Shown here one piece after another: positions 649 through 22,975 of a stretch of 64,000 nt of DNA. Each line of letters starts with the position of its first letter. Within the stretch, counting starts at the first letter, position 1. Both the position numbers and the translations under genes were made by a program. This DNA is from Ceratodon purpureus (Eukaryota; Streptophyta; Bryopsida; Pseudoditrichales; Ditrichaceae): positions 96,716,072-96,780,071 of the forward strand of contig CM026426.1 in the NCBI GenBank assembly GCA_014871385.1, in the 5' to 3' direction. The notes beneath the pieces were generated by a model that saw nothing but the letters and a program-made list of their open reading frames with translations, had not been told where the DNA came from and did not search any database.

Positions 649-712
<64 letters not shown>

Positions 713-846
713 CTAAATATTATTATTTTATTTAGATACATATATATACATATTTTTAGATATATATTTAGACATATTTTTAGATATATATTTAAGAACA
801 TATTTACACATATATTTGGATAGATGTATATATTTAGATATATACT

Positions 847-885
<39 letters not shown>

Positions 886-1081
886 AATTTATTTATACAT
901 TAATTAATTAATTTATTTATATGCTTAGATATATTCGTTTCTAGTTGATGTTCCATATAAATACATGTATATATATAAAAAAAAATCAATATATATATAC
1001 CAATATATAACAATATACATAAATATATATTATCTTATTATTTTATATACATCTTTATTTAAATAAATAAAAATATATATT

Positions 1082-1119
<38 letters not shown>

Positions 1120-1158
1120 GATATATATATATATTTAGATATATATATATATATTTAG

Positions 1159-1189
<31 letters not shown>

Positions 1190-1400
1190 GATATATATAT
1201 ATATATATATTAGATATAAGTATTTATTTAGATATAATTAGATATATTTAGATATATGTATATATATGTATATATTTAAATCCATGTATTTATTTATATA
1301 TTAAGATATATATCTAAATATATACATCTTTATATATGTATAATTTTAGACTGTTATATTGGATCATGTATAAATATATGTGGACATGAATTAATAGCAT
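1..1400. repeat. AT microsatellite and low-complexity tract
   Basis: Long runs of (AT)n or (TA)n, for example near 508-540, 652-708, 857-882 and 1087-1210, are mixed with a repeated TATATTTAGATATA-type unit. Apparent reading frames here are runs of Tyr/Ile and are not genes. No gene, RNA or element end can be seen. Confidence 0.9.
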
Positions 1401-1825
1401 ATTAGTATTTTTAATATTTCATAATGATACGATGCAAATTTTATAAAAATGAATAGAAACACTGTAGTAATTCAACAAGACAATGTGTAGTCAAGCGTCA
1501 TTCTTCATTATGGTGATTTGTTCCAACCTTGATATATTAGTAAAGTAATGTGACATACTTCACATATGGTTTTGTAGCTAATTTAAAATCACTATAGTAA
1601 TTCATTAGGAAAATGTATAATGGAGTTCATGTAGTCTCAAACCAATCAAAACATTAAAATAAATTTAATTAAAATTATTTCTCAAGTAGTAACACGTAGA
1701 CCTAGATTTTGCAGCTTAAAATGTTTGTCACACTTTATCAGTTTTGCTATGAAAACTAAGCCTCATTCTAATTAACCAGGTTTTCTGGATAGGGTATATT
1801 CCTTTGATTTCATCCATTTGCTTGC
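1401..1825. other. AT-rich DNA without recognised genes
   Basis: Unique-looking AT-rich sequence between the microsatellite tract and the last exon of the methylase-like gene. The left end of element 2 probably lies somewhere in or beyond it, but no inverted-repeat partner to sequence beyond 29 kb was found by eye. Confidence 0.5.
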
Positions 1826-3263: not shown

Positions 3264-3283
3264 CTGCAACCAAAACCATTTCC

Positions 3284-3314
3284 ACTAAACACCATATTCG
3301 TTATTTTGGGAGAT
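3284..3314 (+). repeat. Left target duplication and terminal inverted repeat of element 1
   Basis: ACTA at 3284-3287 is followed by a 27-bp inverted repeat at 3288-3314, beginning AACACCATATTCG and ending TTGGGAGAT. Its exact reverse complement lies at 14541-14567 and is followed by ACTA at 14568-14571. A perfect 27-bp match in inverse orientation bounded by the same 4 bases on the outside is the signature of a DNA-transposon insertion. Confidence 0.88.
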
Positions 3315-3440
3315 ATTCTTGAATTTGGGAAATCAGCGTGTAGAGAAATGGCCACATTCGTCCCCTCCCATTTACTTCAATCTTGCGGAAATCAATATTG
3401 AATCATTAAAAACACCTTAAAGGAACAATGAGGCCCATGT

Positions 3441-4292
3441 CATTTAGGTCAAGTGGACCTAAATGCACGAACATACAGGAGAAAACTTAGTAATGTTCAT
3501 TGATTCATTAAAAACATGTTTAAAGAGAGATGATGATTAAGTCATTTAGGTCGATCACACCTAAATGCAATATAAACAAGGAAAAAGAATATACCACGTC
3601 CCCTGTATTTTTAGTAGTAACTATTTGTTACCTTTTCTAAACCAAGGTTTCAATAAAAGGCAATGTCCACTCACATAAATTACATTCGGAAATTTGAATA
3701 ACACAAAAAGTGTGGTAGACAATGAGGCAAAAATAGCAGACGAGAAAATTTGACAAACAGATCAATCGTTTTATTCAAAACATAATTACATCGAAATAAC
3801 ATAGAGGACTCTTATAATCGTCTATATTGTCTGCGCCATTGCTATACAGTACATAATATCCTCTATATGGTTATGGAGTCCCTCCGTAAGCCTCAATTCT
3901 TGACTTGACAAATTCCCGTTGGCGCTGACGTGTCCACGACATTCCCTCAACCTGCATCATTGGACTATCAAGAAGACGTTGCAACTTCTGCCTACGCCTG
4001 TCACCGATGCTTGACTCTGGCAGAGAGTGGCGACGGGTACTGGATGGTTTAGAGTGGGAGTCGGCGGACTTCCTTGCCCCGGATCCTGTAGTTGTTGATC
4101 GTAGCCTTGGCATCTGCAAAGGGGATAAATTAGTATTGGGAAGAGATTTCGGTTTAGGTCGAATCGACCTAAACTGCTGAGTGCAAGTGTAAAGGTCGAA
4201 CAGACCTTGAACGAGGAGGCCTACATAAGCTAGAACCAGACCTAGATGAGAGTATAAAAAGATCAATCATTTTAGGTGGCCTCGAGCTAAAA
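3441..4292. repeat. Dispersed palindromes of element 1 (left group)
   Basis: Four inverted-repeat sites occur here. They are 3441-3465 (CATTTAGGTC, 4-5 nt, GGACCTAAATG), 3543-3567 (a degenerate copy), 4153-4173 (TTTAGGTCG-AAT-CGACCTAAA) and 4270-4292 (degenerate, TTTTAGGT...GAGCTAAAA). The last two fall inside the intron 4114-4384 and the first two lie in the 3' flank of the gene, so none interrupts coding sequence. They share the arms of the copies at 6.2, 7.3, 10.3-10.6 and 13.7-14.0 kb. Confidence 0.8.
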
Positions 4293-6096
4293 TAAGGACA
4301 TCAGAATGAAACATCATGAAAGAAACTTACGGGATGAAACATCAGAAAGGAATGAAAAGCGGATACTGAGGAATGAAAACCAACCTTTGCCGGTGGTGGT
4401 GACGGCATGTCCTCCACATTGTTATAAAGAGCACGCTTCGTAGGGGTAGAACTCTGTTGTTTCGGAGATACAACCTGCAGTACGGTCCGTGGCCACATAG
4501 GAGAAGGGGATTTTAGGGTCTTGGGAATGGACAGGTTAACCGGGATGTCCACAACCCCTTCATCGACAGCCATAGTTGAATAGTCCATCGTGGGCTGCGC
4601 TGTTGCAACGGATTGCAATAGAAGCCCTCTGCTACGTAGAGAGGGCCCGCAGCCATAAGCATAATTCAAAGAATCCACAGAGGCTCGACATGCATTATCC
4701 TGCAATACATAAAGCGAATAGAAACATACATCCACCAATAAATCAGCAATGGTTTAGGGTTCGTCGCAAGGGGCAGAATAGATCAAGAAAGAAATATCAA
4801 CTTCGTATTACAAAAGGAGTAGTCTGGATACAAAGATTATGCAAGTGGTTAAGATGTACAACATACTAATAGCTGCGCAGCAGTTATGAAATGTCTATTA
4901 ACAAAGTAGAGAACCGGAACCATGCCAAATTATGGTCTACGACTAATTGCCTCATTAATCTTAGCGTATTGTTCACAGGTAGAACGGTAATCATAATACA
5001 TTTTCTTCCCGATCGGACGCTCGGTCCTGAATCTAGCGATTGTCCCCACAAAAAGGTGTAGGTCTACAAGATATGGCAAAAGTTTCGACAACAAGAAACG
5101 ATCATCTGCGGCATCAGGATTCTGGTTGTTCGAAGTGGAGAGTAAAAGGACATTGTAAGAATTATTCTGACAGTGCTTGATCGGGCTGTCGTTGATAAAA
5201 ATGGTGTTGGCTTCGGAATATAGGCCACCAAATTTACGAAAGAGACCATCAGACATCGGCTTAAGGAAGATGTCCTTCTGAGTCCCGGGTTCCTTCATAT
5301 ATACCGGACGACCTCGAAAATCTACGCCCATAGGAACTCTCTGACAGTCCTCTTGACCTAGAATTTTGAGCGGATAGACAGGACGAATCGGACCGAACAG
5401 ATAGTCGCAGATCATTTTTGTCGTCGAAGTCTTCATCGAACTCCAGACGGTTATGGTTGCGAATGCTGACAACCGACGAAGGAAATCAGCGCAATTGGGC
5501 CTGACACAAACAAGCTTAGGGCCCACGACTGTTGGCTTGGACGCTGAGTGGATGCTAAGGTCATGGCTAACGAATGATTTTCCAGGCCAATTAGGAGTAC
5601 TGGAGCAGAGTATTCCATTGAGGTCGAGGACAACGTTCAACCAACCACTCTGAGGTCTTGTCGGGACAGGACTCAATTCTTCACTAGAACTTACGTCACA
5701 TCCAGATGCCTCGCGCACCTGGAGAGGAAATACCGATGACAGATGGACATTACTATATTATACTAGGACGGGGTTATACGAATGATACAATGAGGACAGT
5801 CGCAAGGCAAGTCATTACCCAAGGAAACAGTGCAACGAGATATAATGATGGATGAAATACCTGAACATCCTCGGCTTGACCTTCAACAACATCCCGATCC
5901 TCCACAGGCTCCATCGACCCTAATGAATCCTGAGGTTGATCGTCAGGAATGACCTCTACGCACGTTGGCAAGGTCAGAGTACACTAGGCCGTGACATCTA
6001 AATCCATATTTGTGCGTACAGGCTCATCCGTAGTTTGGGCCATGACAACATCATCCACGATCCGAAGATCTTCCACTTCCTCATTCACTTCGTGAC
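3871..6096 (-). CDS. FCP1/NIF phosphatase-fold protein carried by element 1
   Basis: The first exon (6096-5862) encodes an acidic stretch (VNEEVEDLRIVDDVV...) with one in-frame TAG. After donor CAG|GTATTT it joins in phase to 5718-4868. That exon contains a HAD/FCP1 domain: WLNVVLDLNGILCSS (motif I, with Asn in place of the second Asp, as in the plant DxNG clade), ITVWSS (motif II, Ser), then KDIFLKPMSDG and TIFINDSP..C..N (motif III). A TAA follows ISRRP. If it is read through, a donor at 4867 joins in phase to 4699-4385 and 4113-3871, a basic Ser/Arg-rich tail (MPRLRSTTTGSG...RRRQKLQRLL). The 3' part could instead be a separate gene. FCP1-like enzymes dephosphorylate proteins such as the RNA polymerase II tail. 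Here the altered motif makes activity uncertain. A role in expression or silencing control of the element is inference. Confidence 0.65.
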
Positions 6097-6179
6097 CTGG
6101 GCATTGCAAGAGAACTATTGAATCATCAGAGAGTGATCAATGAAGCTGACATAGAAGGGATTGGTAAAAAGTTGAACGG

Positions 6180-6200
6180 TTTAGCTCGAGTCGAGCTAAA
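6180..6200. repeat. Element 1 palindrome between two genes
   Basis: A perfect inverted repeat, TTTAGCTCGA-G-TCGAGCTAAA, lies between the last exon of the coiled-coil gene (ending 6304) and the first visible exon of the FCP1-like gene (6096). Confidence 0.85.
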
Positions 6201-6303
6201 CAACCCATTTGTATTAATTACAATCGTTTTGGTACAAAATGCACATTTCAGTGAACTACTCCGGTATTAACACCTCATCTACAAAATTCCGAGTTCAAAA
6301 AAT

Positions 6304-8064
6304 CTAAGTTTGGGAGGGACCTGAAGATGTCTCGGGAGCATCTCCCTGAGTCTGATTGTGGGAGGGAGAACGGGGTGGGCTGGGACTAGGGTCACGCATG
6401 ACCTGGTCGGTGCAATGATGGCTTGGCTCAAGCACTGATGCGGGACTCGGATCCGACATTGGCGATTTTGCACCACTGGTAGGGGATCCCAAAATCTCAA
6501 GCAATCGCGGAGAAGGTGGGGCGCTACCTATCGGCTGGATGTTGGGCAGAACTGGACCCGCATTCGGGAAAATAGGGACGTTACTGATGCCTCGCAGAGC
6601 CGCCTGCACTGTCGCCTGCACAGTCTTCTCTATATCCATTTTCTGCTGTGCCATCTGATCTTGTAATGCTTTATTCCTATCATTGGACGCCTGTAATTCT
6701 GCCATAAGAGCTTGAACATCCGGAGATGGAGCGGCTCTCCCCAACGGGGATGCTTGCCGCGCTGTAGGGTTGGGCTTCTTCTTCTTCTGTGCCGGCTTTC
6801 CAGTACTTCGCGCACCGCCAGTCTTTCTCCCACTTCCGGATCGCTGCTCCGGTGCAGAACCCGGTCTCTCATCGTCCATACGTGTAATGTCGACGTCAGA
6901 AAAATCGAGTCTTCTCCCCACTCCACCCTCAGATGCGGTCTGACTTACCGGATCAGAAGGCGGAGCATCGCTCTCATTGCTAATGTCCGCAGCACTGGAG
7001 GAGGGGGTCTGTTCCTCGGTGAGGGCATCCTCCTCCAGATCAACATCGTCACCCTCCTCCACAGCTCTGCCTTTCCCTTTCCGCACGGCTCTGCCATATT
7101 CCGGAAAGCGTTCCTTATCGACAAAATATGCGTTGACACTAAAATCGGTTGGGTCCAGAGTTAATCCAAGTGACTGAGCCTCGATCATATGAGACGAGTC
7201 ACTATCATCCGCGACCACGAAAGACGAGATCGAGAGCATCTGAAAAAAACAAAGACAAGGTAAACAAGGTTTAACTCAACTCGAGCTAAAGTGTGGAAGT
7301 ATGTGCATACATGGTGCATAAGATCAAAACAGTAGAACGATTTAACTCGACTCGAGCTAAAGTGTAGAAACACTTACCGCGGCGGCCATGAGGGACTTCG
7401 TTCCAGCATAGAGCTGATAAACCGCCCCCCCAATACTGCAGAAAGTGTCGTGGACCTGCAGGTAGAACTCCATCCTTAACTCGGATGGATACATTGCGTA
7501 CCTCCTTTCGTTAAACTTCCTGTTGTCCGTGTACAGTGGGTGGACCGGAGTTGTGTACTTGCTCAGAGGTTCTGGCGTCGACCCATCGTTCTCAAGTACA
7601 TTATCATCAAGGAGAAACAGGAGTTTGACGGGTTCCATCGCAATTCTGCTCTTCGGGGGGTGTCCGCCAAGTCGCTCGTTAGGAGCGGGTTAATACTCAG
7701 AAGGGAATCTTCTACGACCACTCAAGGTGTTTCGCTCCACCCAAGTGAGCACCCTCCCGCTCCCCTCCTCATTAGAATCAGGCATAGAGAAGCCCTCGCC
7801 GGAGGTGAGGGGAAACTTGATGTTGGAAGCGTTCATAATCTCCAGTTGCTCTAGACCATGTGCAATAGTCCAATCCCACTCCACACCAGGCTGCATTAGG
7901 CGTGCAATGAGGTTCCACGGGGGAATCTCTACGCCGCGACCACGGGCGCGTTCCACCGCCATAAACCAGGGACGAAGCTCCTCCACTCCTTGTGGGGAAA
8001 CAACCACCTCCCACTCGTCTGGCGGGTAACTTGACACCCTAAAACCACCGCCCGACCTCCTCAT
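6304..8064 (-). CDS. Coiled-coil, Pro/Ser-rich basic-acidic protein of element 1
   Basis: Two exons. 8064-7372 starts at ATG (MRRSGGGFRVSS...) and ends MAAA at a consensus donor (GTAAGTG). 7239-6304 follows a polypyrimidine tract and CAG and stays in phase. The joined product is about 540 aa. A Trp-rich N-terminal part (DEWEVVV, PWFMAVERA, WDWTIAHGLEQLE) is followed by an acidic block (EEGDDVDLEED), a Lys cluster (KPAQKKKKPNP, a possible nuclear signal), a coiled coil (VQALMAELQASNDRNKALQDQ) and a Pro/Ser-rich tail. One TAA (after RRRFPSEY) interrupts exon 1 in frame. The 132-nt intron holds two element palindromes. No family is recognised. The composition suits a nuclear DNA- or chromatin-binding accessory protein, but that is inference. 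Confidence 0.65.
7270..7361. repeat. Two element 1 palindromes inside a short intron
   Basis: TTTAACTCAA-C-TCGAGCTAAA at 7270-7290 and TTTAACTCGA-C-TCGAGCTAAA at 7341-7361 take up about a third of the 132-nt intron 7240-7371. The start-to-start distance is 71 bp. Confidence 0.85.
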
Positions 8065-8531
8065 CACAGCAAATGAACTACAAGTAGATGAAACACAAGG
8101 GAACTAAGAATGAAACAACTGTTTCGTCGCCCAAAGGAACTTATGCTTATGAAGCGGCATGGGCGGGAAGCCGAATGTTCCAGAGTAACGAAGGGGACTT
8201 TGACCAGAGTCGGTAACGGGACTTTGACCGATGAGGGCTTTTGAAAGTCCGGATTTACTTAAATGTGTCATTTTGATTTGTTATTTAAGAATTGATTAAT
8301 GGGATTGTATGCTTAGACAAGCATCTAGAGCCTTTCCCGATATTATATATTAATACTACAATTATAATTATGATCATTGGTTTAATACGTTTCATTTGAA
8401 TCCATAATTTATGAGTTTTCTTAAAAAAATGAATGAACCAAACATTCCACTTTCTTATTAGAATGTAATAAAATTGTACAAATAGAAGTCAAGGTAGAAC
8501 ATTAATGAATTGATTAAGGTTTGTGTAATTT
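8065..8531. other. 5' flank of the coiled-coil gene, AT-rich
   Basis: Upstream sequence of the minus-strand gene that starts at 8064, passing into AT-rich DNA. A partial direct repeat (CGGTAACGGGACTTTGACC, near 8188-8232) is visible. No gene is seen. Confidence 0.4.
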
Positions 8532-9180
8532 CCATGCCAATCATACAAGGCATACCATGGTTTAAATATTCGCTTCTCATGAATAAATTTAATAAACCAT
8601 AAACCTTTTAAAAAATATAAAGAATTTGCCATAATAAATGAATTGATTTCTATAATTTAAGACTTTTATTTTTAACAATGTACTTCGTATATATACTTGA
8701 ATATATTTGTATATCATTTTTAGATTTGTATATACTTGAATATAGATTATTATTCTCATATTATAATCAATAATTAAATATAAAATTGTAAATGAATATA
8801 TTAGAGCCTTGGTATACTATACTATATTATTATATTATAATTAAATTATGATACTATCATATACTTTAAGAATATTAGGCTTACATTTAGGTCAACGTAC
8901 TTTCACCCCATGCCAATCATACAAGGCATACCATGGTTTAAATATTTGCTTCTCATGATTAAATATAAAAAATTCAATCTTCTTAAAAACGTATATAATT
9001 TGCCATGATAAATGAATTAAATTCTATAATCTAATACTATTATTTTTAACAATGTGTTTCGTATATACTTGAATATACTTGTATATCATTTTAAGATTTG
9101 TATACATTAGATTATAGTTTATTATTCTCGTACTATTCTTAATTGGACATTAAATTGTTAATGAATATATTAGTACCTAC
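8532..9180. repeat. Tandem duplication of ~280 bp (period ~376 bp) in element 1
   Basis: Two diverged copies begin with the same ~40 bases (CCATGCCAATCATACAAGG...) at 8532 and 8908. They run in parallel to about 8816 and 9178, sharing TTTTTAACAATGT, TTCGTATATA and TGAATATATTAG. They lie in the noncoding centre of element 1, between the divergent gene sets. Confidence 0.8.
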
Positions 9181-9649
9181 TTGTAAATGAGTATATAATT
9201 ATATTATACATATTATAATACTAACGTGTATATTAAAAATATACATGTTAAGATGTAGAGTTCCAGAAACGAAAGAATAAATCTACACCATTCACGGCGT
9301 CAAGAACACATTATGAAATAAATAGAGACATAAATAAAAGTACATGAATATATATACATGATAATTATATCTGACTAAATATGTAGAATAAATAAATAAT
9401 TCTAAATTTAAAAACATATCTACCAAGGTCTATCAAGAACTATTCATGAACTCACATATAATGATTTGATTTCATATATCATATATAATAATGAAATTGA
9501 GCAAAAATACATATTTAGTAAATGGAGGTATGAATATTTGCAACGATATACTTCCTCGTATCAACCTGACTCACAAAATTCAAATAGGTTCAAACAATTT
9601 TCGATTTAATTTTATTCCATGTACAAGATATTTAATGTCCCTAGAAATG

Positions 9650-9740
9650 CCTTAACCCTATACCCTAGACCCTTAACCCTGGACCTAAGACCCTAAACCC
9701 TTAACCCTGAACCCTATACCCTAAACCTTGAACCCTGATA
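9650..9740 (+). repeat. Degenerate plant-telomere-like repeat (CCCTAAA-like)
   Basis: About a dozen imperfect units such as CCTTAACCCTATACCCTAGA, ACCCTAAACCCTTAACCCTG and ACCCTATACCCTAAACC run in one direction. They resemble the complement of the plant telomere unit TTTAGGG, with many substitutions. They lie in the centre of element 1. Confidence 0.75.
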
Positions 9741-10330
9741 GAGGAAGAAAAGTTCGCGGCCAAAAGTCAACACTTTGTCTGGCGCTATAGGGACTTCCAA
9801 CCCATCCCATTTGATTTAATGCACCAAATATTTCGCATCTGCATCTATCTAAAGGGCCGAGAAGTATGGAAAGTGGTAATTCCCGCGCATTCTTACACCC
9901 CGAAATGTGGAGGGACGAATGGTCATGCATGATTCCCGCCTATTTTCAAAACTCAAGCGGCATGTAAACGGTCACACGTTAGAGAATGACCTCTGGAATC
10001 GTCCCCGCCTGAAGTCTTTTCTCTACTCACTTGCTTCTCTCGCTTGTAGGAGCTCTCGGCGCTCACTTGGAGGTGGTTGTTTTCTGGGCGGAAGCTGTAT
10101 TGCGCCGTTTCTCTTGTACGTCTTCTCTTTAGTTTTCTCCGATCATCAATACACTTCATTGATTTCTGGTTGTTGTATGCTTTCCATTGTTTCAAGTCAT
10201 GGTGTATTTGCAATGTCTCTCTTTACTTCTTACAGACGTTTTAGAGCGGACACCGTAAGCGTACTCTGAGTCTGCGACTCAGAATTCCAAAGATGGAAGC
10301 ACCTATTAAAGCGCCGCTTTTTGTGGACGG
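9741..10330. other. Central noncoding DNA upstream of the transposase-like gene
   Basis: No supported gene. A 120-codon open frame at 9907-10269 has no recognisable features, and both strands are open here. The stretch leads into the palindrome array, so it is a likely promoter or 5' leader region for the gene that starts at 10733. Confidence 0.4.
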
Positions 10331-10333
10331 CAG

Positions 10334-10637
10334 TTTAGCTCGACTCAAGCTAAACTGCTGCATCCAAAGAGCATCATGAGTTTAGCTCGACTCAAGCTAA
10401 ACTCATGCATCCAAAGGGCAGCAGAAGTTAAGCTCGACTCGAGCTAAACTCATGCTGCCCTTTGGATGCAGCAGTTTAGCTCGACTCGAGCTAAACATCT
10501 GTATCCAAAGGGCAGCATGAGTTTAGCTCGAGTCGAGCTAAACTTCTGCATCTAAAGGGCAGCAGCAATTTAGCTCGAGTCGAGCTAAACTCATGCTTCC
10601 CATAGTCCAGGAACAGTTTAGCTCGACCGGAGCTAAA
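10334..10637. promoter_or_regulatory. Seven-copy palindrome array, strict 47-bp period
   Basis: Near-identical 21-bp inverted repeats (arms TTTAGCTCGA and TCGAGCTAAA, one central base; some left-hand copies have TCAAGCTAAA) start at 10334, 10381, 10428, 10475, 10522, 10569 and 10617. That gives spacings of 47, 47, 47, 47, 47 and 48 bp. The intervening 26 bp also repeat (CATCCAAAGGGCAGCA, once inverted as TGCTGCCCTTTGGATG). The array ends 95 bp before the ATG of the transposase-like gene. It is probably a multivalent protein-binding platform that acts on transcription or transposition. The motif is shared with single copies throughout element 1. Confidence 0.9.
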
Positions 10638-10732
10638 CTGCGCCTGGGATAAGTTCTCAAATTTAGAGATTGATTCTCTTTAAGGAGTATAATATGTTCT
10701 CACAAAATTAGATCTGTTGCATTCCAGGTACA

Positions 10733-13570
10733 ATGGACTATGTCTCAGATGACGAGGTACCCGTTGAAGTGCCCGTAAACCCAGACCTTCCAGACTTCGT
10801 GGTTGTACCCTCAAGACAATGGCAGAACAAGACTGTAACAATATACAGTGACGACAATATCCCGTTAGCAGAGGGTTTGATCCGGAACCCACGGTCCAGC
10901 TTGGTATCTAACACGGTTGGTCCCCTTGGTGATTCCGTCGTCGTCGTCCAGGTATCACGTTCTTTGGTCGAAGAAGAGTCAGAGGATGATTGGAGGTACT
11001 CCTTCAAAACGTGGCCTATGAGCCACGTCTATCTGGATGGAGTTAGCCTAGAGCACCATAGTGAACGTGATGTGTATAACCGTTGGGTTGCGGAGCGTAA
11101 CCGATCCCTGGGAGATCGTACCTGATCGTATGATAACTCCTCTAGGAATACCCCCCCACTTATATCACGTCACGCTGAGTTTCTGATGACCCAGCCATCT
11201 ATCAACTCTGTAGCAGCAAACACGTGCTGCGCTCACCTATGCGTCCAACACTATCCCAGAGATAAAATCTCTACTCTACGGTCGCGTATGTACAACAAGA
11301 CCACAGTGCAGTTCCGTAACCACATAAAACTCGACGTGCATAGACAGATCCACAAGAATTCAGCGGGGAGTAGTGTGGTGACTCTGGAGGGCATAGATGT
11401 TTGCCCCTTCGCCTGGATGAAGATTATGGGAGTGAGCTCCAGTACATTTTATAGAAATGCCAAGTATGCTGCTGCTGGTTTCGAGGCTCAATTTCACGGT
11501 AATACTGGTTTACGTAAACCTAGAAATCACACAGTAGTAGCAACTGCCGTCCTAGGGGCCATCCTTGACAGGCATGCCGACCACATGCCCCACAAGAGTC
11601 GTGTTCTGCCTTCAGGGGAGACAGTTGTAGCTAAAGTTCTGCCTTCCAGTTTCAAATGGAAGGAACAGATTCCCATCCTCGATGAGCATTTAGCGGACTG
11701 CGGATTGCCTCCTATGTCCGCTTCTTACTTGAGCAAGATCAGGAGGCTTAGCTATCCAGAATATTACGCCAAACGGGTAGGAGACAACTTCGCTCGTTGC
11801 TCAAAATGTGATGAGTTCCAGTCCCAGAAGAAGTTGACGGTTACAGGATCTCAGGCGTCCCTGTTGTGGTCTATGAAAATGAGGCTGCACAATGACTTTG
11901 GAATGGCGCATAGGGACTTGTACTACCTAAATCGATTCAGGTCGAAGGCTACTCCGCATGAAGTTCTTACAATTATGCATGACAAGATGGACCACTCGAA
12001 GACGGCATCGCCGGCCTTATCCCACAAGGTCAAACACTTAGACGGTCTCATGAAGCTTCCTCTCGCTGTCATGGGAATGCTTGCTCATGGGCATGTGGAC
12101 CAACGTTACGCCCATTATGGCCTTGACATTTACTCACACGACGCTAATTACACGGTTGGATCGTTTGCGAAGCTCCTTCGGGACCTTGAGTCACCCCCTA
12201 AATCCACCTCTTGGGAACTCTTTCAAGAGAATCCTTCCCACCCATTGTATGCCGCGCTTTTGCATGGTTCAGAGATGTGTTTGGATCCTCTTGGCCCTCC
12301 TCCTGAGGTTCCTGTTGCTGCTAAACCCTTGCCTCCCATTCTTAACGTCCAAATGGATAACGCTGTCAGTGATAACAAGAATAGGTTTGTATTTTCATTC
12401 TGGTCCCTATTAGTCGCGAAGCGGGTGTTTCGCGAAGTGTACGTGAATTTCATGCTGGTCGGCCATACTCATGACGATATTGATGCCCTTTTCGGGCGAT
12501 GGAGCATGGCTTTGCGGAGGGAGGACTTCCCCACAGTACCTCTCCTCATGAAGTACTTCATGAAACATGAAGCAGTACCAACAATTCCGCATCTTGTTCA
12601 GGAGGTCCCAGATTTCAAGAAATTCATCGCGGAGTGGATGCTTGATGGCGACGATACGTTAATGGGTCACACTAAAGCTCATCAGTTCAAATTCTATGTA
12701 GATTTTTCAGGATGCCCTGTCATGAAGTATAAAATCTTCTGTCACGACGACGACTGGTTGCCAAAAGGAGATGGTTGTGGCATCAAGTTGTGGAAGGAGG
12801 ATTCAGAAAGTCGATCTTTATGGCCCCGTGGTGTTCCTGGTGCCGTGGCGCCTCGCGAGATGCGGCACCTGCCTGATGTGATTAAGGGCTTGTCGGGTTT
12901 TGTAGATCATTGGGAGAGGCTATCTTCGGATTCAGTCGAGTCCAGAAGAATCTATGAGCCACTCTCATACTATTGGAACGATGTTAAAGAGGCTCTTTCC
13001 ATCCCCTTTGATGCTGTCCCCGCCTTGGAGCATGGTTTTTGGCCATCCACGCGGCTCGCTCACTCCGTCGAAGACGAGTTTCAGGAAGATGGAACTTTGC
13101 GCGAGGAGTTCGCAGAGGATGATCACTTTGTTGGTCACAAACGAGATCGCCGAGGACCGTCGTTCCGTGTTGCGCGAGACCTTTTTGCAGGGTACTTCTT
13201 GGCGCTTTGACCCTGCGATGAAGACGATCGTCCTTTCTGGCTTGCGAGGGCCTTGACTGACCCTAATTCGAACCCTGACCTCCCGAACACGATCCAAGTA
13301 GAGTTCTACCGCCCAATTTCCCGAGATGAAAATGTTTTGAAATTCTATACCGGCTGGGATGTGGATGGGAGACTTCGTTGGACAGTTGAGAAGGATGTAC
13401 CCGAGTCGTGGCAAAGTACTGACGCAGTCATAACAGCTTAGAAATCCAAAGTTAAAAAAAATGTCAACGAGCGGGGCGTTGGCAAGGATCCAACGCTGAA
13501 GATCCCACTGAAACAACTGGACATTATAAAGGCCTCCTTGGAGAGATTTGTGTCTCCGGATTCTGAATAA
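10733..13570 (+). CDS. Transposase-like protein with VGHTHDDID motif (DUF7869-like), stop-interrupted
   Basis: One frame stays open from ATG 10733 to TAA 13570 apart from TGA at 11123, TGA at 13208 and TAG at 13439. No frameshift is seen, giving about 945 codons. The N-terminal ~130 residues are acidic (MDYVSDDEVPVEVPVNPDLP). The middle has a Cys pair (FARCSKCDEF), then LNVQMDNAVSDNKNRFVFS..., then VNFMLVGHTHDDIDALFGRW. This spacing of acidic residues (QMDN, GHTHDDID) is typical of a group of plant, algal and animal proteins annotated DUF7869, and it resembles an RNase H-fold transposase core. The C-terminus (RPFWLARAL, KIPLKQLDIIKASL) is separated by the stops. An acceptor-like CAG lies 5 bp upstream of the ATG. 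It is the likely mobilising enzyme of element 1. The superfamily is not established. Confidence 0.65.
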
Positions 13571-13702
13571 ACATGTAGCTTTGAAGTTGGTGGTCTTGAA
13601 GTTCTGAATTTAGTGAGATCGCTTATATTCGTTTGAAGACGACTGAACTGAATTTCGTTCGTCCCTTCATCCAACATTATGTTTTTAAGACAAAGGTAGA
13701 TG

Positions 13703-14033
13703 TTTAGCTCGAGTCGACCTAATCAGTTATAGCGTATTAGTTCTAGCGTATTTATGTTTTGAATACTAGCTAATTACATATATTTAATTGGAGGGAACAC
13801 TACTTAAGTGTTTCAGTCCATTCCTTATTTATCATGTGTACCACATTATAGACCGCAGTTTAGGTCGAGGCGACCTAAACTGCATTTGGCGTTGAAGTTC
13901 GTACTTTACGAGTGCGGGATACCAACAGGTCACCTATAGTTCTTAGTGTAGATTTTTACTTAGTACCCTAAAACGTTGATTCTATATCATATGTACTGCC
14001 ACATAACAGCCATTTAGGTCGAGGCGACCTAAA
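13703..14033. repeat. Element 1 palindromes (right group)
   Basis: 13703-13722 is TTTAGCTCGA-G-TCGACCTAA, a hybrid of the two arm types. 13859-13879 and 14013-14033 are both TTTAGGTCG-AGG-CGACCTAAA. The last two are each followed by a similar stretch (CTGCATTTGGCGTTGAAGTTC and CGACATCTAGCGTTGAAGTTC), so the flanks are repeated too. Degenerate half-sites occur near 14236, 14343 and 14503. Confidence 0.85.
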
Positions 14034-14258
14034 CGACATCTAGCGTTGAAGTTCCTAGTTTGGATCTCTGAAGTAGAGCCGATAACATACATTTGTTGGC
14101 ATGGGACTATACTGAAGTCCGTATGTTCTTGGATTGCATATCATACTGTGGAAACTGTAGGCAGCTATGTTGGTCGAACAACTTGATTGTTTGTACAGGT
14201 CTGAAAGAGCCTGTCACGGATTCAACATTTAAGGAGTGTCGACCTAAATTGTATTTCC

Positions 14259-14263
<5 letters not shown>

Positions 14264-14286
<23 letters not shown>
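14264..14286. repeat. Short (TA)n microsatellite
   Basis: CATATATATATATATATATATATTATATAA-type run in the 3' noncoding part of element 1. Nothing else is seen between 14034 and 14520 except degenerate palindrome half-sites. Confidence 0.85.
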
Positions 14287-14289
<3 letters not shown>

Positions 14290-14521
14290 AAGATTTCCCA
14301 GCATATCCATTGTGTCCATCTCTTGTTATTTGTTTGATGTTCATTTAGGGTGGTTCGACCTACCTTGTATTTTTTCAAATATTTCTAGTAAACCCCTACC
14401 TTCTTTCATTTCCCATTAGTACTGTGTGATCATGTCCCAAATTAATGGAAATTGCTTATAAGCTTTTCCTTGCCAAGTATGGGACCATTGTGCCCATTTT
14501 AACTCGACCTGATCTAATGCA

Positions 14522-14571
14522 TTATTTTGGGAGATGATAAATCTCCCAAAATAACGAATATGGTGTTACTA
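14522..14571 (-). repeat. Right terminal inverted repeat with hairpin, and target duplication
   Basis: 14541-14567 is the exact reverse complement of 3288-3314 and is followed by ACTA (14568-14571). The inner 14 bases (ATCTCCCAAAATAA) also pair with TTATTTTGGGAGAT at 14522-14535 across a 5-nt loop, so the right end alone can fold into a 14-bp hairpin. The left end has no such partner. Confidence 0.88.
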
Positions 14572-15773
14572 TTAGTTTATACTTGCAACAACATAATATA
14601 AATCACATTGATACATTGAGTACGCATCATGGATACGAAGTTTGAACATTTCAGATATACATCCACTCCCTCCTCAAGCATGAAGCCATTACAGCCACAT
14701 CTCAAACCTCTCACATGTACAAAATATGCCAATTACAGGTGAGGTATGGTTGAACTGAAAGTCACAGCATGAAAGCAAAACTCAGAGGAATCAAAGAAGA
14801 CAAGAAACTTTCTAAGCCAGTAGCGGAAGATCAAGCTGTCCAATACTTGCAAATAAAATAATTGAAAACGCTAAAAAGAACTGTCAAGAGGAATATGGCC
14901 ACTAGTAAGAGAAACAGTTATAACGAGAGTCAAGAAATTGATTATGTGGAACTGAATAAGCAATATGGTACCCGCAGTAGACCCTATGCTAAACTACACC
15001 TCGCTTGAAGACAACAAGCGAAAGCTAACTATACATAAAATCCTTGGAAATACTACTGAAGAGGCGAGCAACAGAGATGTCTGTTATAGCAACGATCCAA
15101 GACCAGAATAAAATTAAGGAAATTCTACCTCAGCCGATGAACGCTTCGTCACAACTCCATTGGTTACAGAAAAAAACGAAACGCACTCATTAACAGAGCT
15201 AGCTCTATGGACCATGAATTAGATAGTGCACTGACGAAACACAAGAAAACCCAAGAGGATGCATAATCGCTCCAAACCAGCAGCAGATTATTGCTAGGAA
15301 AGGGCTCGTTGAGATACATAAATGGAATCATGAAGAACGAAATCACTCGCTCTGGAGCTACCAGAATCTACAAGTTAACAGAACTACTCTCTCGAAAGGA
15401 ATCGGCAGTAAAATACGGGGGACAGAGATACCGAGATGTAAAATTCTATCTAATTAACGAAACGGGTGTTCTGTAGAGAACAGCCTCTCCATGGTCCCAA
15501 TACGACCCTCCCATACACCAACTAGGTCTAACAAGAGCATGATCTGCGAACTTGCATATTCTCACAAGCTGTCTGGGCCATACAATTGCAGATTCGATAT
15601 CAAAGCAATCCATTTAAGTTAATGACTTAAACAAATTTGGACCATGTCATTACCGAACTGGCTTGCAAGCACATGAAACACATGCACATAAGATAGATAC
15701 AATATAAGGAAGGAATCTGACATACCATCATACCCTCTTAGGCTGGGTGCGTGAGGGGCTCGGATTGGTGAAC
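14572..15773 (-). other. Remainder of the methylase-gene intron
   Basis: Sequence between element 1 and the exon that ends at 15774. Together with 3264-3287 this would be a ~1.23-kb intron without the insertion. Short open frames (15164-15346, 15291-15476) show no features. It includes the second copy of the 17-bp repeat at 15566-15582. Confidence 0.6.
15566..15582 (+). repeat. 17-bp direct repeat, copy 2
   Basis: ACAAGCTGTCTGGGCCA, the same as at 2606-2622 and in the same orientation. Confidence 0.5.
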
Positions 15774-18700
15774 TTGCCACTCACATTTGATTTTCAGTTT
15801 GTATTTTAAAACCCTATGCATTAGCTCGTGAAGATATCCCATAGGCATCAGAACCAGGATAGCACCATCATCGTGCAGATAGTCATAGGCAAACTCAAAA
15901 CCGGACGAGTACCAATGATTGATTGAACCATCCAGAGAGTTCCACACGGGTACGCTATCTCCGAAACCAGGAACAAGTGTTTGGAATGGTTGGTCAACGA
16001 TGACGAGGTTTGCAACTGGGAATATGCCTCCCTTTCCACGAAGAAAAGTCTCCTCCTCTCCCTTTGCCTGATAGAGTTAGAAAAAAATTAGATCATGTCA
16101 AATGGAATTTGAATGTTTTAAGAAAATAACATTTAGGGGTATTGAGAGGAGTGTACCGTCAATGCGAATTCTTCAAATGTTGATGCCTCACTCTGGAGAA
16201 AATCCCCAACCGAGTTATTAATTACATGCTCCTGGTATTTTACACCGTCTGGAGCCCGTCTAACAAGAGAGGTCCGCAAAGTAGACAAATAGCCACCTCC
16301 GATGCTTCTGGTCACATGAGAATGGGACTTCAAGGACCTAGCTTCGGACTGTGCCCCATCGATATCATGCCTCCCTTTCTTTGAAGATCCGGCCTGCTCA
16401 TTGTCTGCTCCACTAGCCCGTTTGTTGCCCTTAGCCGGTTCTTTAGCACCTGTCACAATACTTGATGGCGCCGCTTTCTTACCCGCAAGAGCACCCCCTC
16501 TCGATTTGCCCTTCGATGCCTTTGCGGCTGCGACCTCAACCTGTGCCTGTTGCTCCTCACTCTCCTTAGCAGCAGCAGTGAGCCGTTGAAACGAGGGCTC
16601 TACTGATCGCCTGTTTTCGAGCTCATGCGGAGGAGTGTCACTAAGATCGATCTCCAAGTACCAGTGGCATTTGAATAAGTGTTCCTCAGACCAATCCACT
16701 GCTTGGTCCGCGGTGAACATGCAGTCTTCGTTGTTGAGGTCAAGCCAAGATGCGAAGCATGGATGCGCCTCTGGTACATGCTTTTCCGCTCATAATACAT
16801 GTGTCCAATAGCTACAACCATGACAACCCAACACGAATTTTTAATCAAACAATAGTTGAAACTAACCACGTGAATCCAAAGTCACAACCTGAGTTAAAGT
16901 ACCAAACCTCCAAACCACTCCAGAAAACTAACCACTCAAGTCAGTCACTCCATCGTCGACGTAAGAATCAAAACAATGTACCCAACGAAGTGAGCAGTAG
17001 CAAGTTACTTGGTTACGCAATAGCCAACCCAAGTGGCAAGCGTTAGATGGAGGCTCTCAGTAACCGGGTTCCAGGTACTGTAAACTTCATCCTAAGTGCG
17101 GTGAATTGCTAGTAAACGTAACGGAGAGAGATTACTAGAAACTCAAGGTGCCGGATACGAGCACAGCAACGCTAAGGTAGTGTACATGGCAAGATTCAGA
17201 TCCGTCCTGATAATTCAGATATGCAAATTTCCGTCAGATTAATTAAACAGTAGTTGAAAAGCACTATACATTTATCCACATCTTCATAATAAAATATACA
17301 AATACATAGAGAGTAGGATTAACAATTACCGGTAAATGAGGCGATTCATGGCTCTTTCGCCATGGGGCTGCTTCGGGCTTCCCACTCCGCGGACTTCTGG
17401 ATCTCCTTGTTGAGAATAGGCAGATTGAAGGCGTAATCCCACTGTCTGATTCGATTTGATGCGACGTAAGCATCGAACTTTATACTCGGTTTGACATCAG
17501 TAAGTGCGTAATCACTCACTACATCCGCGTAGAACTCCATTGACTTTTTCTTCAACATATGCCAGAACACGTATTTGTGGAGGTAAGTGTTAAATGTAGC
17601 GTCATTGAACGGATGAAGAGGAAACTTCTTAAGCTTCCTGTTTGCATCGGATGAGTTCCAGATTCTTAGAATCTGCTCTTTCTCTGTCGAGGGTATACAG
17701 GAGCAGCAAGGTTCTGTAACTTCTCAATTGTCATCTCTGGGGTGGAGTTCATCGACCAATGCTTGGCAATCTGACAAGTAACATCAGAAAATGAGTTAGT
17801 GAGATTTGTCACTTCAGCTGTACTGACTAGTAAGACATAATTTCTATTAGTGATAAATTGCAGTGGCTACCATCATTGGACCATGTTCGGCACCGAACAA
17901 GTAATCGTCAATACTCACTGCAAATGAGTACGGGACTCTAAACTAAAACAAAGACAATAGACACTCATAGCAACCGAGGCAGACACTGATAAATTACAAA
18001 GAGCAGTCCTTGGCGCAATCTATGCAGAACACAGTCATAAGTTGTTGAGTACGCTTATGGTCCATGAAAGAACCCACAACAAGTCACTGCACTATGAGAG
18101 CTATCCAGTTAAACTAAATACTAAATTTCAGATTACATATGCTTGAGCATGAGAGCTAAATCAACCATCAGGTGATCTACAGCCCATCAGAAAGTATGAT
18201 TAACATTTCAAGATAAGCAAAAAGAAGTTTATACTGGTTTCTTCTAGAAGCGACGCAACTAAATAACTCAATAAGACCGTACACCTTAACTCAATTAGTA
18301 TTGCATTAGTGCATTGAAAAGAACTGTGCATCTCACTCTACCTAAAAAGCCTTTGAAACAAAATACTCGTAGCACACAAATATGCTCAAGTTCGACTAGT
18401 CCCTGCTTACTGAGGCCATGTGGTGAATATTGAGGCGTTCGGTGCAGAACACCCGCACATGGACCCGACAGTGCTGGACAATAGGGCTTGGTTCTAAATC
18501 ATATTTAACTTCGAAATACAAACAACGAATGCAATAAGATTTAGGGTAAATTGAAAAGTTTCATCGATACACTAGAACCGGTCCTACGAATTTCTGTCTC
18601 AACATGGTGTTCGGCACAGAACACCCCTGGTTCGAAAAGCTTAGAGTGGACCCTACGAGTTCTACGGTTTATTCATAGTATATAGAGAGTGCGTCCCACT

Positions 18701-20454
18701 AAGAGAATACAAGGAAGCGAAGTTCATGCACATAATTGATTGAGCATTACCTCGGTCAGAAATAATTTTCCATTCGCAGGATTTGAAATCGTCAACAATT
18801 TGTTAAATGCAGAGGAGAAGCTTTTCCGCTTTGCTTCCATGGCTCCATTTATTGCTTGAAGCAGTACATCAGCCGTGCGCCTACGCCGCGGAACATCTTC
18901 TTCGTATTTTCTTTGACCTTCATCACCAGCCTCTGTGATCTCTTGCTGCAATGAACATTTGAGAGATAGTGAGTGTTCAAGAATATAAAATCAGTTTGAA
19001 ACAATATACGATAATGAAGAAATCGAATTTGCTTACACTGTAAATGAATTCGAGGAACCTTGCTCTTGGTACCGGGTACCAGGGCCTTTTCTCCAAGGGT
19101 AGTTCAAGGGACTTAAGTGCCGCAGTCATCTCATCAGGTAAAAGCACATCCCGAAATTGCTCAAGAAGCAGTGACCCAAGTTTTCGAATTCGGTGCATAG
19201 TATGGACTTGGTTCTGCTTCACATGCGAGTTTTCATTCGATTTGTTGATGTCGTGCATAGCAGTTAGTACATCCGTCACATCCTCATGTGTTTTGAGCAG
19301 AATTTACCTCACCCTGAAATGCCATTCATAATCATTTTTATGTGATTTCTTTATGAAATCATACCAGGCTACCAGACGGTGGTTTCAAGCCCACACGTAG
19401 AAATATTTGTCAGATAGAGCAGAAAGTTCACTGTCCTCTTTTAGGAAATCCTCAAACTCCATGTCTCTTCTTTGCCAGCATGAACTCCATTTTGCTCGTT
19501 CTTCTGCAGTAACGATCTTCTCTTGTCCTTCAAAGTTAGTTGTAGAAACATAGAAAGCAGCAGCTCCGTCACGATAGCCATGGACAAACTCTGCCTGCAT
19601 CTTCGTGAAATCCATCTCGAGCGCTAGGCGTACTACCTGCAATTTCCTCATTCTGCAAAGGGGAATGTCAATGTGCGATTTACCCCCTTCGAACAACTCA
19701 AGGCGCTTCAGGATTTGGATCGAGATCACCCTGGTTTGGCGATGTGCAACTATGAGCTCGTACTCCTGCTCAGAATCTAATGCTGGTCCAATCATGTCCG
19801 GTTCATCTCCACCATTTCCTACATCGCCATCGTCCCCGTCACGGATATGGAGCTCAACTCTATGAGGTGCATCGTCCTCCTGAAGATCCTCTTCTATCAC
19901 CACATCGATCGCATCACCTCCTTCAGGATCATCATCACCATCTAGTTCGGAGTCATTGCCGCCTGCTACTAGCACAGCAGATCACGAAGATTAGTTAGTT
20001 TGTGAAATACTAGGAAGAGGAGCATCCTAGTTTCTATTGAATATACATTGTAGTTTCTAATGAATCAGAATGAGCTTCGCTGAATTAAAGCAGGAACATT
20101 ACCTCGATCATCAGCTCTCGGACTCTTGGCACTCTGATCATTATTTATGCTTCTTTGAGTTGGCTCTACTATGATCTGGTCCAGGTGCATGTCTGTAACA
20201 TCTGGAAGAAAGCACGAGAATAATTTCATAATGTTTCATTAAGAATAATTTCATATTGTCATAATTAAGAATAATTAAGAATTATGTTATGCATGCGTTC
20301 GGTGCAGAACGCATCATATTACATTCAAAACATTCCATTATGACCAACCATAATATAAGAGGTTTATAGAGAATGCCGTACCGATTTCTCCCGGGACAAA
20401 TTCCGCATCCATCTTACTCCCCTGTAGCTGTACGAGCTGATCCCCAAATGCAAT
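15774..20454 (-). pseudogene. Methylase-like gene, 5' exons (acidic and basic regions, then DQPF motif)
   Basis: Eight exons chain on the minus strand with matching phases at most joins: 20454-20382, 20201-20103, 19968-19397, about 19279-19037, 18945-18751, 17770-17330, 16788-16157 and 16067-15774. The product has an Asp/Glu-rich region (DGDDDPEGGD..EEDLQEDD), helical regions, an Ala/Lys-rich basic block (KASKGKSRGGALAGKK...GNKRASG) and then FPVANLVIVDQPFQTLVPGF. That last stretch occupies the place of the (D/N/S)PP(Y/F/W) catalytic motif of N4/N6 amino-methylases, with Gln replacing the first Pro. The glycine-loop part follows in the next exon at 3263-2843 (phase 0 to 0, ...KCEWQ + TFNFSAVLLVK). 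Order DPPF then FxGxG is the beta class (PF01555). The 17.3-17.8 kb exon has a frame change and a TGA. The first exon is not found. It is probably carried by element 2, because its introns hold that element's 14-mers. DNA or RNA binding without methylation is possible. Confidence 0.6.
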
Positions 20455-21458
20455 CTGAAAACAAAAGGCGTGGTTAGTGACCCGTTCGGCACAGAACATG
20501 GTGAACTAGATGGACATTGATACTTTAACTGCCCCATGATTTAGAAAAAATCAACATAATCTATCATATAAGTTACTAATATTGCAAAAATCCTACAAAT
20601 GTAGATAGAAATGGCCTTAATTTCACCTCAAAATACCATGTTCTGTGCAGAACGGCACTTCTATGCAAACAACTGATAATATCCAAGGAAATTCAACATC
20701 AAGGAGTAAATATACGAAGTTGCATATACTAAATATGTTGGAGAACAAATCACGTTATGTTCAATAAATTTCATTTTACATTGCCTTAGGGACCTCTACT
20801 CGGCGCAGACCAACAACGAAACGTTAAGAAATAAAACATTCAGATAACATGAGGAACATCGGCAACCCCTGTTCGGCACAGAACAACAAATTGAATTCAA
20901 GGGTCAAAGAATTTAAGATTACAACCTCAGTCCTATTCGGCACTTTATAACAATGTTACTTCATATATTACATTAATTTAGATCACAATTTCTCACAAGG
21001 TTTACTCTGATTGGCGCAGAACAACCCTGTTGGACATTACATATATTTCAAGTATATTATCTTCTAAAGCTTTAAGTTGTCTGTTCGGCACAGAACAACC
21101 AGGTTGATTGTAACAAGACATATGCATGTCAAACTAACTACCAAGTAAATTGCATGATTCGGCACCAAACATATGTCAAACCATATCTCAAACTATGTCC
21201 GAACTCTACCACTATTTCTAAGTTAGATTAGCGTGTTCGGCAAAGAACGTCACCACTCAAAATAATGAATCACAACGAGAAACACAACGATCCAAAGAAC
21301 AACCAAGTGTTTTCCATTCTCTCACAAATTATGCACGTATTATAACGAAGCACATCCATAATGACCACTTCCACGTACCAAGATGCGTATCCATACATTA
21401 ATAAACTCAAAGTCACTTTCAGACAGTCGAATCACCTAAACCTTGTTCTGCGCCGAAC
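17885..21458. repeat. Element 2 palindromes (14-mer) in methylase-gene introns and upstream
   Basis: Copies of GTTCKGYRCMGAAC lie at 17885, 18437, 18609, 20297, 20484, 20640, 20871, 21083, 21235 and 21445 (start positions; 14 bp each). Examples are GTTCGGCACAGAAC, GTTCGGTGCAGAAC, GTTCTGTGCAGAAC and GTTCTGCGCCGAAC. Degenerate copies lie near 20810, 20936, 21012 and 21158. All fall outside the predicted exons. The densest group, 20.3-21.5 kb, lies upstream of the first visible exon. Confidence 0.85.
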
Positions 21459-22260
21459 AGTGGGCGAACAGTACATGTGCATTAGATCTATGGGATCGAC
21501 CAAACCCTCAAATATACCTTGATCTGCTAATAACAATGAGTATAGTGAACAAACTGCTAATGCAAATCTGAAAACAAGCATTCATGTGAACTTATTATCG
21601 TAGTTTCTGCAACAATCTTAACAAACCTAATTTTCTTGTGCATAGTTGACTAATCCTACTAGGCTGCATTGTCCAATCGTACAAATTCATTGAACAAACA
21701 TCATTCGGTGACTAAGGGAATCACAACTCATTAGCCATGGATAAACAGGTAACGAGCTCACGACATCAACACCGCACACAGGAGGGACTTAGGCACACTT
21801 AGGGGAGAATGCGATTGTACTAATACCAATAGAAAGCTATCATAGTTATAAAAGCACTTACCCAACTGAGAACTACATGCAACGCAAACCAAAACCGAGC
21901 CCCTCTAAACAATGTCACCAAGTTTGACTCACTCACGCAGATGGGAGAAGACTCACTCACGCAGATGGCCGAATTCAAATTTGTTTAAGAATTCTAGAGC
22001 GAGGTACCCAAACAGAGTAGTTTCATCCACCAGATCGCATTAACAGGAAAGTGAATTATAAAAAGTTTTCATTGTATTCAAAATAGCTTCATTCATGACA
22101 ACATTAATGATTCAAGTCTATTTGTTTATAAATTGTAGCCCTTCTGGAAATAGATCTCACGGCTAACCAACGTGATTGCCATAATTTCAATAGAGTGTAT
22201 TATATATTTTCAATGACCTAAACATGAAATTCCTGTTGACCTTCTCTAGGGCCTAGCTTG
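20455..22260. other. Noncoding DNA rich in element 2 palindromes
   Basis: No supported gene. It contains the densest cluster of the 14-mer palindromes and probably the unrecognised first exon and promoter of the methylase-like gene. A short direct repeat (GACTCACTCACGCAGATGG) occurs twice near 21929-21968. Confidence 0.5.
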
Positions 22261-22292
22261 TTACTGTAATCATACTCATTTCATACTGTAAT

Positions 22293-22350
22293 CTACTGTA
22301 ATCTACTGTAATCTACTGTAATCTACTGTAATCTACTGTAATCTAGTCAT
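22293..22350. repeat. 10-bp tandem repeat (ACTGTAATCT)n
   Basis: About six perfect, head-to-tail copies of ACTGTAATCT, with two more separated copies on either side (near 22283 and 22348). It begins directly downstream of the stop of the small membrane-protein gene (transcription runs towards it), so it lies in that gene's 3' region. Confidence 0.85.
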
Positions 22351-22358
22351 ACTGTAAT

Positions 22359-22975
22359 CTACTCCATCATATTCTCTAAATTATGAAGCGCTTCATCGCT
22401 TAGCCCTGCATAGAAATCACAGTACATGTGATATGATTTCTCATGGGTCCATACCCCATCAGCTTCAGTAAAGTGATCTTCATCATTCTCACTACTTGCG
22501 GAATCATCCGATGAGACATCTGATGGGACCGTCTCTCTCAAATCAAGTCCTGTATTCTGTATTTCTCTGGAAACATCCCAACTCTGGACCATGAAGTACG
22601 CAACAATAACGGTTGTGAACGCAGCTAAGGTAAATGCCTCAATTGACATCTCCACTACAATGCTTAAAGTGAATGCTGTCTCAGGCTTCATCGTACTCTG
22701 GAAAAGCAGATTTCAATGTGACTATCATGTTCGTATTAAACTGAAACTAACAAATCCATATACGCATGATCAAGAAGTTAGAGAGGTTGCATCTGGAAGT
22801 AAGTTACCTGATGGTCTAGTGGCTCCGATGAAGCTAATCTTCGTCTACAATATGTCTTTGAGTAGTAGTCACTTTCTGGGTTACTTGCCTTTGGATGGGT
22901 CCTCTCCTCACTAAAAGATCTCTCTACAGTCTCTAGTAATGCCTTTGCTCTTCTACTAGCTCTCGTCTCAACCAT
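22359..22975 (-). CDS. Small single-pass membrane protein with acidic tail (two exons)
   Basis: Exon 22975-22808 starts at ATG (MVETRASRRAKALLETVERS) and ends ...PLDHQ at donor GTAACT. Exon 22697-22359 follows a CTTTTCCAG acceptor in the same phase. The product is about 168 aa. It has a basic N-terminus, one hydrophobic segment (IEAFTLAAFTTVIVAYFMV) and an acidic, Ser-rich C-terminal region (DVSSDDSASSENDEDHF) ending HNLENMME. The frame is intact, unlike its neighbours. No family is recognised. It sits between the methylase-like gene and the MULE transposase, divergent from the latter, within the span of the 14-mer palindromes. It is therefore a candidate accessory gene of element 2. Function unknown. 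Confidence 0.6.

Follow-up and report, generated by a model that had tools for sequence, protein, structure and literature searches.

Palindromes confined to lineages of DUF7869 transposons in Ceratodon purpureus: candidate recognition sites comparable to VANC targets

The TnpA motifs of En/Spm transposons are non-palindromic and subterminal, and Sola elements are characterized by 4-bp target site duplications (TSDs). The motif of VANC21 is a 9-bp sequence (YAGTATTAY) which is arrayed in one orientation (Hosaka 2017, PMC5735166), and activation and demethylation linked to TnpA are mentioned by Sasaki 2023 (PMC10398659). Sola1-1_Ec32 of Ectocarpus, a 21.5-kb element, encodes on the opposite strand an accessory protein of 1104 amino acids, which was reported to have ParB-like and N4/N6 methyltransferase domains and for which the authors propose a possible role in binding and modifying the transposon that encodes it (PMC12477816). 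The available text of that article contains no word beginning with 'palindrom', the retrieved literature (titles and abstract openings) names no family-specific palindromes in such elements, and no paper was found under the term DUF7869. Here, we describe a palindrome family in a stretch of 64,000 nucleotides from Ceratodon purpureus (assembly GCA_014871385.1, contig CM026426.1, positions 96,716,072 to 96,780,071; in the following, the window). Within the window, the family is confined to element 1, a transposon with terminal inverted repeats (TIRs) and a transposase-like gene of the DUF7869 type (window 3288-14567, 11,280 bp), and is compared with the palindromes of other DUF7869 loci in the same 362-Mb assembly, in which the window contig comprises 110.5 Mb. 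We regard these palindromes as candidate recognition sites for an element-encoded protein.

The repeated unit of element 1 is a palindrome of 21 bp, TTTAG[C/G]TCG-NNN-CGA[G/C]CTAAA, in which two 9-bp arms flank 3 bp. All positions of the window were scored by the number of matches to TTTAGSTCG-NNN-CGASCTAAA at the 18 arm positions. Seven sites reached 18/18, 14 at least 17/18, 17 at least 16/18, and 20 at least 14/18, and all 20 are located within 3443-14518, i.e. inside element 1, the best match outside it (at 29761) scoring 13/18. In 300 first-order Markov copies of element 1, no site with at least 16/18 occurred, and sites with at least 14/18 numbered 0.15 per copy. A preliminary description, made from the sequence of the window, had reported at least 14 copies between 3441 and 14033 and none elsewhere; both statements agree with these counts, except that weak members extend further, to 14518. 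An unbiased scan for palindromes with 5-bp arms (ten 12-kb tiles, families of at least four members, control maximum of 3) recovered two families only, that of element 1 and that of a second element of the window, element 2.

The sites are designated G-type or C-type according to position 6 of the arms. On the left side, G-type sites are present at 3443..3463 (16/18), 3545..3565 (16/18), and 4153..4173 (18/18), the last one in an intron of gene C, which also contains a hybrid site with a G-type outer and a C-type inner arm (4271..4291). A perfect C-type site (6180..6200) lies between gene A, which encodes an accessory protein, and a gene with a NIF phosphatase domain, and two C-type sites (7270 and 7341, spanning 7270..7361) share one gene A intron (7240-7377). 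A tandem array of seven C-type palindromes in steps of 47-48 bp (10334..10637) ends about 95 bp before the ATG of the transposase-like gene; within it, one linker (10450-10474, by eye) is inverted relative to its neighbours, as inversion between palindromes would leave. Downstream of the transposase follow a hybrid site with a C-type inner and a G-type outer arm (13703..13723), two perfect G-type sites 154 bp apart (13859 and 14013, spanning 13859..14033), and, near the right end, three weak members of 14-15/18 (14228, 14344, and 14498, spanning 14228..14518). None of the 20 sites overlaps a modelled exon of element 1, where 46% of the start positions are noncoding, and this placement remains significant (p ~0.002) after duplicated sites have been reduced to eight clusters. 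The exon models were drawn by eye, and gene A is chimeric in its 5' part in the window copy; with this proviso, the earlier statement that the sites avoid exons and occur in introns, between genes, and upstream of genes holds.

Position 6 is identical in both arms at 15 of the 17 sites with at least 16/18 (ten C/C, five G/G). The outer strong sites have G and the inner strong sites C in both arms, and the two hybrids (4271 and 13703) are located at the two borders between the zones, each with its G-type arm facing outwards; the weak site at 14498 is an exception to this zoning. After collapsing to eight clusters, arm matching is not significant (Fisher p 0.49), and therefore the window copy alone cannot carry the argument for co-variation of the arms that the preliminary description had built on it.

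Genome-wide, the exact palindrome pattern has 2852 sites and a reversed control has none. Of these sites, 50 were listed, which are located on C1 and at the start of C2 without exception, and 48 of these 50 fall into two clusters of about 18 kb, C1:298538-316090 (25 sites) and C1:18419461-18436925 (23 sites). Of the remaining two, C2:623063 is part of an array of ten sites with at least 17/18, and C1:15616582 is isolated within the 1.2 kb inspected. In 21 other stretches of 10 kb (16 of them arbitrary), there is no site with at least 14/18. In the parts of the genome inspected, the palindromes thus belong to copies of the element, and they are not common and unlinked to it, an outcome that would have spoken against the preliminary description. 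Of the 2852 sites, 61 (28 + 33) have mixed arms but are otherwise exact, a count made among related copies. The first C1 cluster represents an element copy of full length (18,938 bp), the TIRs of which are identical and the TSD of which is ACAA (TSD in the window copy, ACTA), so that a 4-bp TSD together with TIRs was seen in two copies. It contains 31 sites with at least 16/18 and 34 with at least 14/18, none of the 34 in modelled exons as judged by inspection of coordinates. A second array of nine sites (steps of about 52 bp) adjoins the first exon in the gene A model, and another intron of this gene contains three more sites. The second cluster, which was partly read, has the same site spacing as the first and its left end at 18418596. 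About 7.7 kb of the full-length copy are missing from the window copy; the junction (window about 7753/7766) lies within gene A, which makes the 5' part of this gene chimeric. A query with the left end found 187 candidates in the genome, and the 40 of these that were scored are 97-100% identical. An open reading frame (ORF) between the two arrays (L022/L023, C coordinates 12645-13190) encodes a peptide repeated in tandem (DEWxPVVxPQGVEExRPWFMAVERARGRGVEI...), reminiscent of the repeats of this kind that have been reported for VANC proteins.

The DUF7869 domain has 1397 candidate matches in the genome, and all 150 of those scored exceeded the cut-off. Five other loci (L049-L053), from candidates with different open-frame lengths, were sampled as one copy each, with 5 kb upstream of the domain match, and all five have repeated palindromes there. 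The transposase fragments of L050-L052 are 83-96% identical to each other, and these loci therefore count as one lineage and the five loci as three. The palindromes are TTAGCTCAC-N-GTGAGCTAA in 26-bp steps (L050), TTTAGCTCA-NNN-TGAGCTAAA in 25-bp steps (L051 and L052), a GGCATATGCC-centred one in steps of about 75 bp accompanied by a second, imperfect array at 62-66 bp (L053), and CGTCGGC-N5-GCCGACG, mostly in steps of 73-77 bp (L049). The commonest palindrome with 5-bp arms occurs 4-16 times per locus versus at most twice in 40 Markov copies of each, and at most three times in 21 control stretches with the exception of L010 (4) and the satellite L007 (31). When the motifs were scanned against the other loci with two mismatches allowed, those of element 2, L053, and L049 were confined to their lineages, apart from one L049-type match in L046, a locus related to element 2. 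The element 1 motif has nine matches in L052 and two in L051, and the L052 motif six in the window copy and 23 in the C1 copy; element 1 and L050-L052 thus form one related group. The change of the palindrome tracks the divergence of the transposase: the loci L050-L052, with 45-48% identity to the transposase fragment of element 1, have the outer arm in common with it and an altered position 9, and L049, with 33% identity, has an unrelated palindrome. Position 9 differs between element 1 and L050-L052 on both arms together, and such a symmetry, maintained between lineages as the sequence changes, is what binding by a dimer would predict.

On balance, we favour the view that the palindromes act, like VANC targets, as recognition sites which are specific to the lineage and are bound by a dimeric protein of the element itself. 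A dimeric protein encoded by the transposon would bind the palindromes of its own lineage, which in element 1 form arrays adjoining the transposase gene and gene A and occur in addition in introns and subterminal DNA, and the bound protein would mark the element as self. The most likely use would be that the element is activated or kept unsilenced, as by VANC in the case of VANDAL elements (PMC5735166, PMC10398659), and docking of the transposase at subterminal sites may be an extra role. We infer protein binding, gene A as the source of the binder, and an anti-silencing outcome; the variant or quite different palindromes at a similar place in the relatives inspected suggest a separate marking of the DNA in every lineage, meant for a protein of that lineage. 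An unlikely but tenable explanation is that the palindromes are subterminal repeats bound by the transposase for synapsis and autorepression, as in CACTA/En-Spm and hAT elements, and that the internal copies are by-products of duplication. The location of sites toward both ends, with G-type palindromes at the ends and C-type palindromes inside, the short distance of about 95 bp between array and transposase ATG, and the joint divergence of motif and transposase would all fit this explanation. The distances to the nearer end in the full-length copy, about 3.9-7.6 kb for the two 9-site arrays and 4.0-5.6 kb for the intron sites of gene A, speak against it.

If the palindromes are bound by a protein of the element, gene A offers the first lead to the binder. 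In the C1 copy, it was modelled with three exons and 1255 amino acids, and its N-terminal third (residues 43-463) is homologous to an opposite-strand ORF beside the L049 array (25% identity; score 165 versus 57.8 +/- 8.9 for shuffled sequences, 0 of 500 as high). A homologous accessory gene is thus present in two lineages with unrelated palindromes, element 1 and L049. Both proteins have an II-N/G-GQH-like motif, which by eye resembles ParB/DndB-type domains. The accessory protein of L046 contains the sequence VWDGNHRLVAW, in which GNHR was noted by eye, and gave no significant alignment with gene A or the L049 ORF; its sole Pfam match at E<=1 is DndB (E 0.055), a protein with a ParB-like fold. 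A ParB domain in gene A, which appeared likely by eye, found no match in Pfam, NCBIfam, and PDB searches and is not claimed because these searches and a search of the genome for ParB_N were empty. Pfam searches with gene A gave neither an N4/N6 methyltransferase match nor a VANC-type domain (DUF1985, DUF287), and homology between gene A and the element 2 gene resembling methyltransferases was not supported by comparison. It is rather doubtful that the opposite-strand accessory protein is ParB-like and perhaps derived from a methyltransferase, that it loads on the palindromes as ParB does on parS, spreads over the whole element, and writes or erases an epigenetic self-mark, and that diverse large transposons of this genome each have a private pair of palindrome and protein built in the same manner.

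Several observations weigh against recognition sites as the explanation. Profile searches detected no DNA-binding domain in gene A, ParB_N (PF02195) has no match in the whole genome, and the 5 kb examined at each of L050-L053 revealed no recognisable accessory gene. Each of the other loci is represented by one copy and 5 kb of sequence; L051 is 63% masked, and its count of four equals that of the control stretch L010. At L049, three of 12 sites (3239, 3596, and 4758) are located inside the transposase-like ORF (first ATG at 2923). The change at position 9 from CG to CA/TG could also reflect the direction favoured by decay of methylated CpG. Seven of the 17 sites belong to one tandem array and three further pairs of sites have common flanks, so that there are fewer independent origins than sites and tandem duplication accounts for part of the copy number. 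In an alignment of 22 left ends (those of the window and C1 copies and 20 from the remaining 39 listed), 23 of 72 arm columns are variable, compared to 269 of 747 other noncoding and 174 of 341 coding columns, and minor alleles make up 2.3%, 2.7%, and 4.4% of the cells, respectively. Arm columns being nearly as variable as other noncoding columns, no selection is visible after insertion: in the recent copies, the arms bear no clear sign of purifying selection, as under neutral decay. Imperfect sites as well as hybrids have become fixed in this family, since the imperfect right arm of 3545 is identical in all 22 aligned copies and the hybrid at 4271 is kept in 21 of 22, and perfect pairing is thus not needed at every site. 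The earlier proposal of symmetry selected for a dimer-bound site consequently stands in part: symmetry is preserved between lineages as the sequence changes, but co-variation within the window copy is not significant, hybrids occur, and the 22 copies lack an excess of arm conservation.

The lack of extra conservation among recent copies would also be in line with minisatellite-like repeats that have spread by slippage, inversion, and gene conversion and have no binding function, as would the regular steps of 47, about 52, 25-26, and about 62-77 bp. One of the 16 arbitrary stretches, L007 (G000:C6:20000001-20010000), contains at 1-6572 a satellite of about 210 bp with 31 copies of the hairpin CCTACTGTCGTCAACGACAGTAGG (first eight copies read), a reminder that tandem palindromes occur in satellites, too. 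We nevertheless consider this origin quite unlikely, as the single sites at 4153, 4271, and 6180 have the palindrome with no duplicated flank found, the sampled lineages differ in the palindrome present at a similar place, and the change at position 9 is symmetric. That host transcription factor sites drive the elements is very improbable, for although one array adjoins the transposase start, the sites differ between lineages and the six motifs, with two mismatches allowed, have no match in the 16 arbitrary genome stretches (135.5 kb).

Element 1 is bounded by perfect 27-bp TIRs (AACACCATATTCGTTATTTTGGGAGAT), the left one (3288..3314, forward strand) being the reverse complement of the right one (14541..14567, reverse strand), and is flanked by the TSD ACTA. 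The transposase-like gene (10733..13440, forward strand) has in-frame stops in the window copy; its sole match is DUF7869 (PF25273, E 1.2e-41, 142.9 bits versus a cut-off of 26), and a Mutator-type transposase (VANA) was not recognised. The other genes are encoded on the reverse strand: gene A (6303..8064), the 5' part of which is lost in the window copy, the gene with the NIF phosphatase domain (4930..5719; PF03031, E 2e-10), and gene C (3871..4711), modelled by eye with two exons (3871-4110 and about 4386-4711). Element 1 also contains an AT-rich direct duplication of about 340 bp (8532-8875 and 8908-9242, 80.5% identity) and degenerate telomere-like repeats (CCTTAACCCTATACCC, 9650-9734). 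Rfam and tRNA searches gave no result, and no relatives were found in viral contigs.

Element 1 splits a methyltransferase-like gene that belongs to element 2: it is located in a putative intron of this gene, about 24 bp upstream of the acceptor, with exon-like ORFs on both sides (2853-3263 and 15738-16789), and it appears to have inserted into element 2. The methyltransferase-like fragment matches N6_N4_Mtase with E 2e-4 and 21.8 bits, below the cut-off of 26.7. Element 2 has a palindrome family of its own, TGTTCKGYRCMGAACA, with 16 sites of at least 14/16 at 15467..27133 (Markov expectation for the whole window, 0.13) and none in element 1; conversely, the element 2 region has none of element 1's palindromes. 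All 16 sites lie outside ORFs read as exons according to a comparison with the ORF list, and a looser TGTTC-N6-GAACA match at 25912 is within an exon-like ORF; the inner bases of the sites are often asymmetric. A relative of element 2 on C2 has 15 sites, and sites of this type are also found left of the window (L001), as far as about -3.0 kb, where they belong either to the same element or to a neighbouring one. Genome-wide, there are 345 exact sites (reversed control, 0), with clusters visible among the 50 listed. No convincing pair of TIRs and TSDs was found for the ends of element 2. Its transposase-like gene (24774-29002) has a SWIM-like C-terminal zinc pattern by eye, no Pfam family above the cut-off, and a relative of 94-95% identity in L046. 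Elsewhere in the window, a short tandem repeat TACTGTAATC (22262-22360) and ORFs resembling a long interspersed nuclear element (endonuclease and reverse transcriptase by eye, 36925-43272) were noted, and a third palindrome family considered at 54-64 kb (TGGCAGCAA) was not recovered by the unbiased scan.

What is new here is that the other DUF7869 lineages sampled have variant or unrelated palindromes on the upstream side of the transposase domain. Since a single genome contains several lineages that differ in their palindromes, it becomes possible to test directly how a DNA-binding protein and its site co-evolve, and the palindromes provide a simple means of sorting element families. Like the TnpA system of En/Spm, the system of element 1 combines a repeated family-specific motif with a presumptive element-encoded protein, a link to demethylation being known for TnpA; in contrast to the TnpA motifs, its sites are palindromic and include internal arrays and intron sites. 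With Sola1-1_Ec32, it shares the large size, the opposite-strand accessory protein, and a 4-bp TSD as in Sola elements, but gene A has no ParB or methyltransferase domain by profile search, only motifs that resemble such domains. The closest likeness is that to VANC and the Mutator-like VANDAL elements of Arabidopsis (PMC5735166, PMC10398659), which also have a short motif private to one transposable element family, located in introns, between genes, ahead of the transposase, and in noncoding DNA at the termini, with expansion by tandem repeats and different motifs in related families; for element 1, a family-private short motif in noncoding DNA was found on the basis of the 50 of 2852 sites listed. 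Differences are the palindrome of 16-21 bp, the DUF7869 transposase, the intact TIRs, and the lack of DUF1985 and DUF287 in gene A. Because transposase and protein domains differ, the system of element 1 is not a member of the VANC system and would, by analogy, work like VANC targets. Our findings suggest that giant DNA transposons other than the VANDAL elements of flowering plants also use, as a recurrent design, a private DNA code to recognise themselves.

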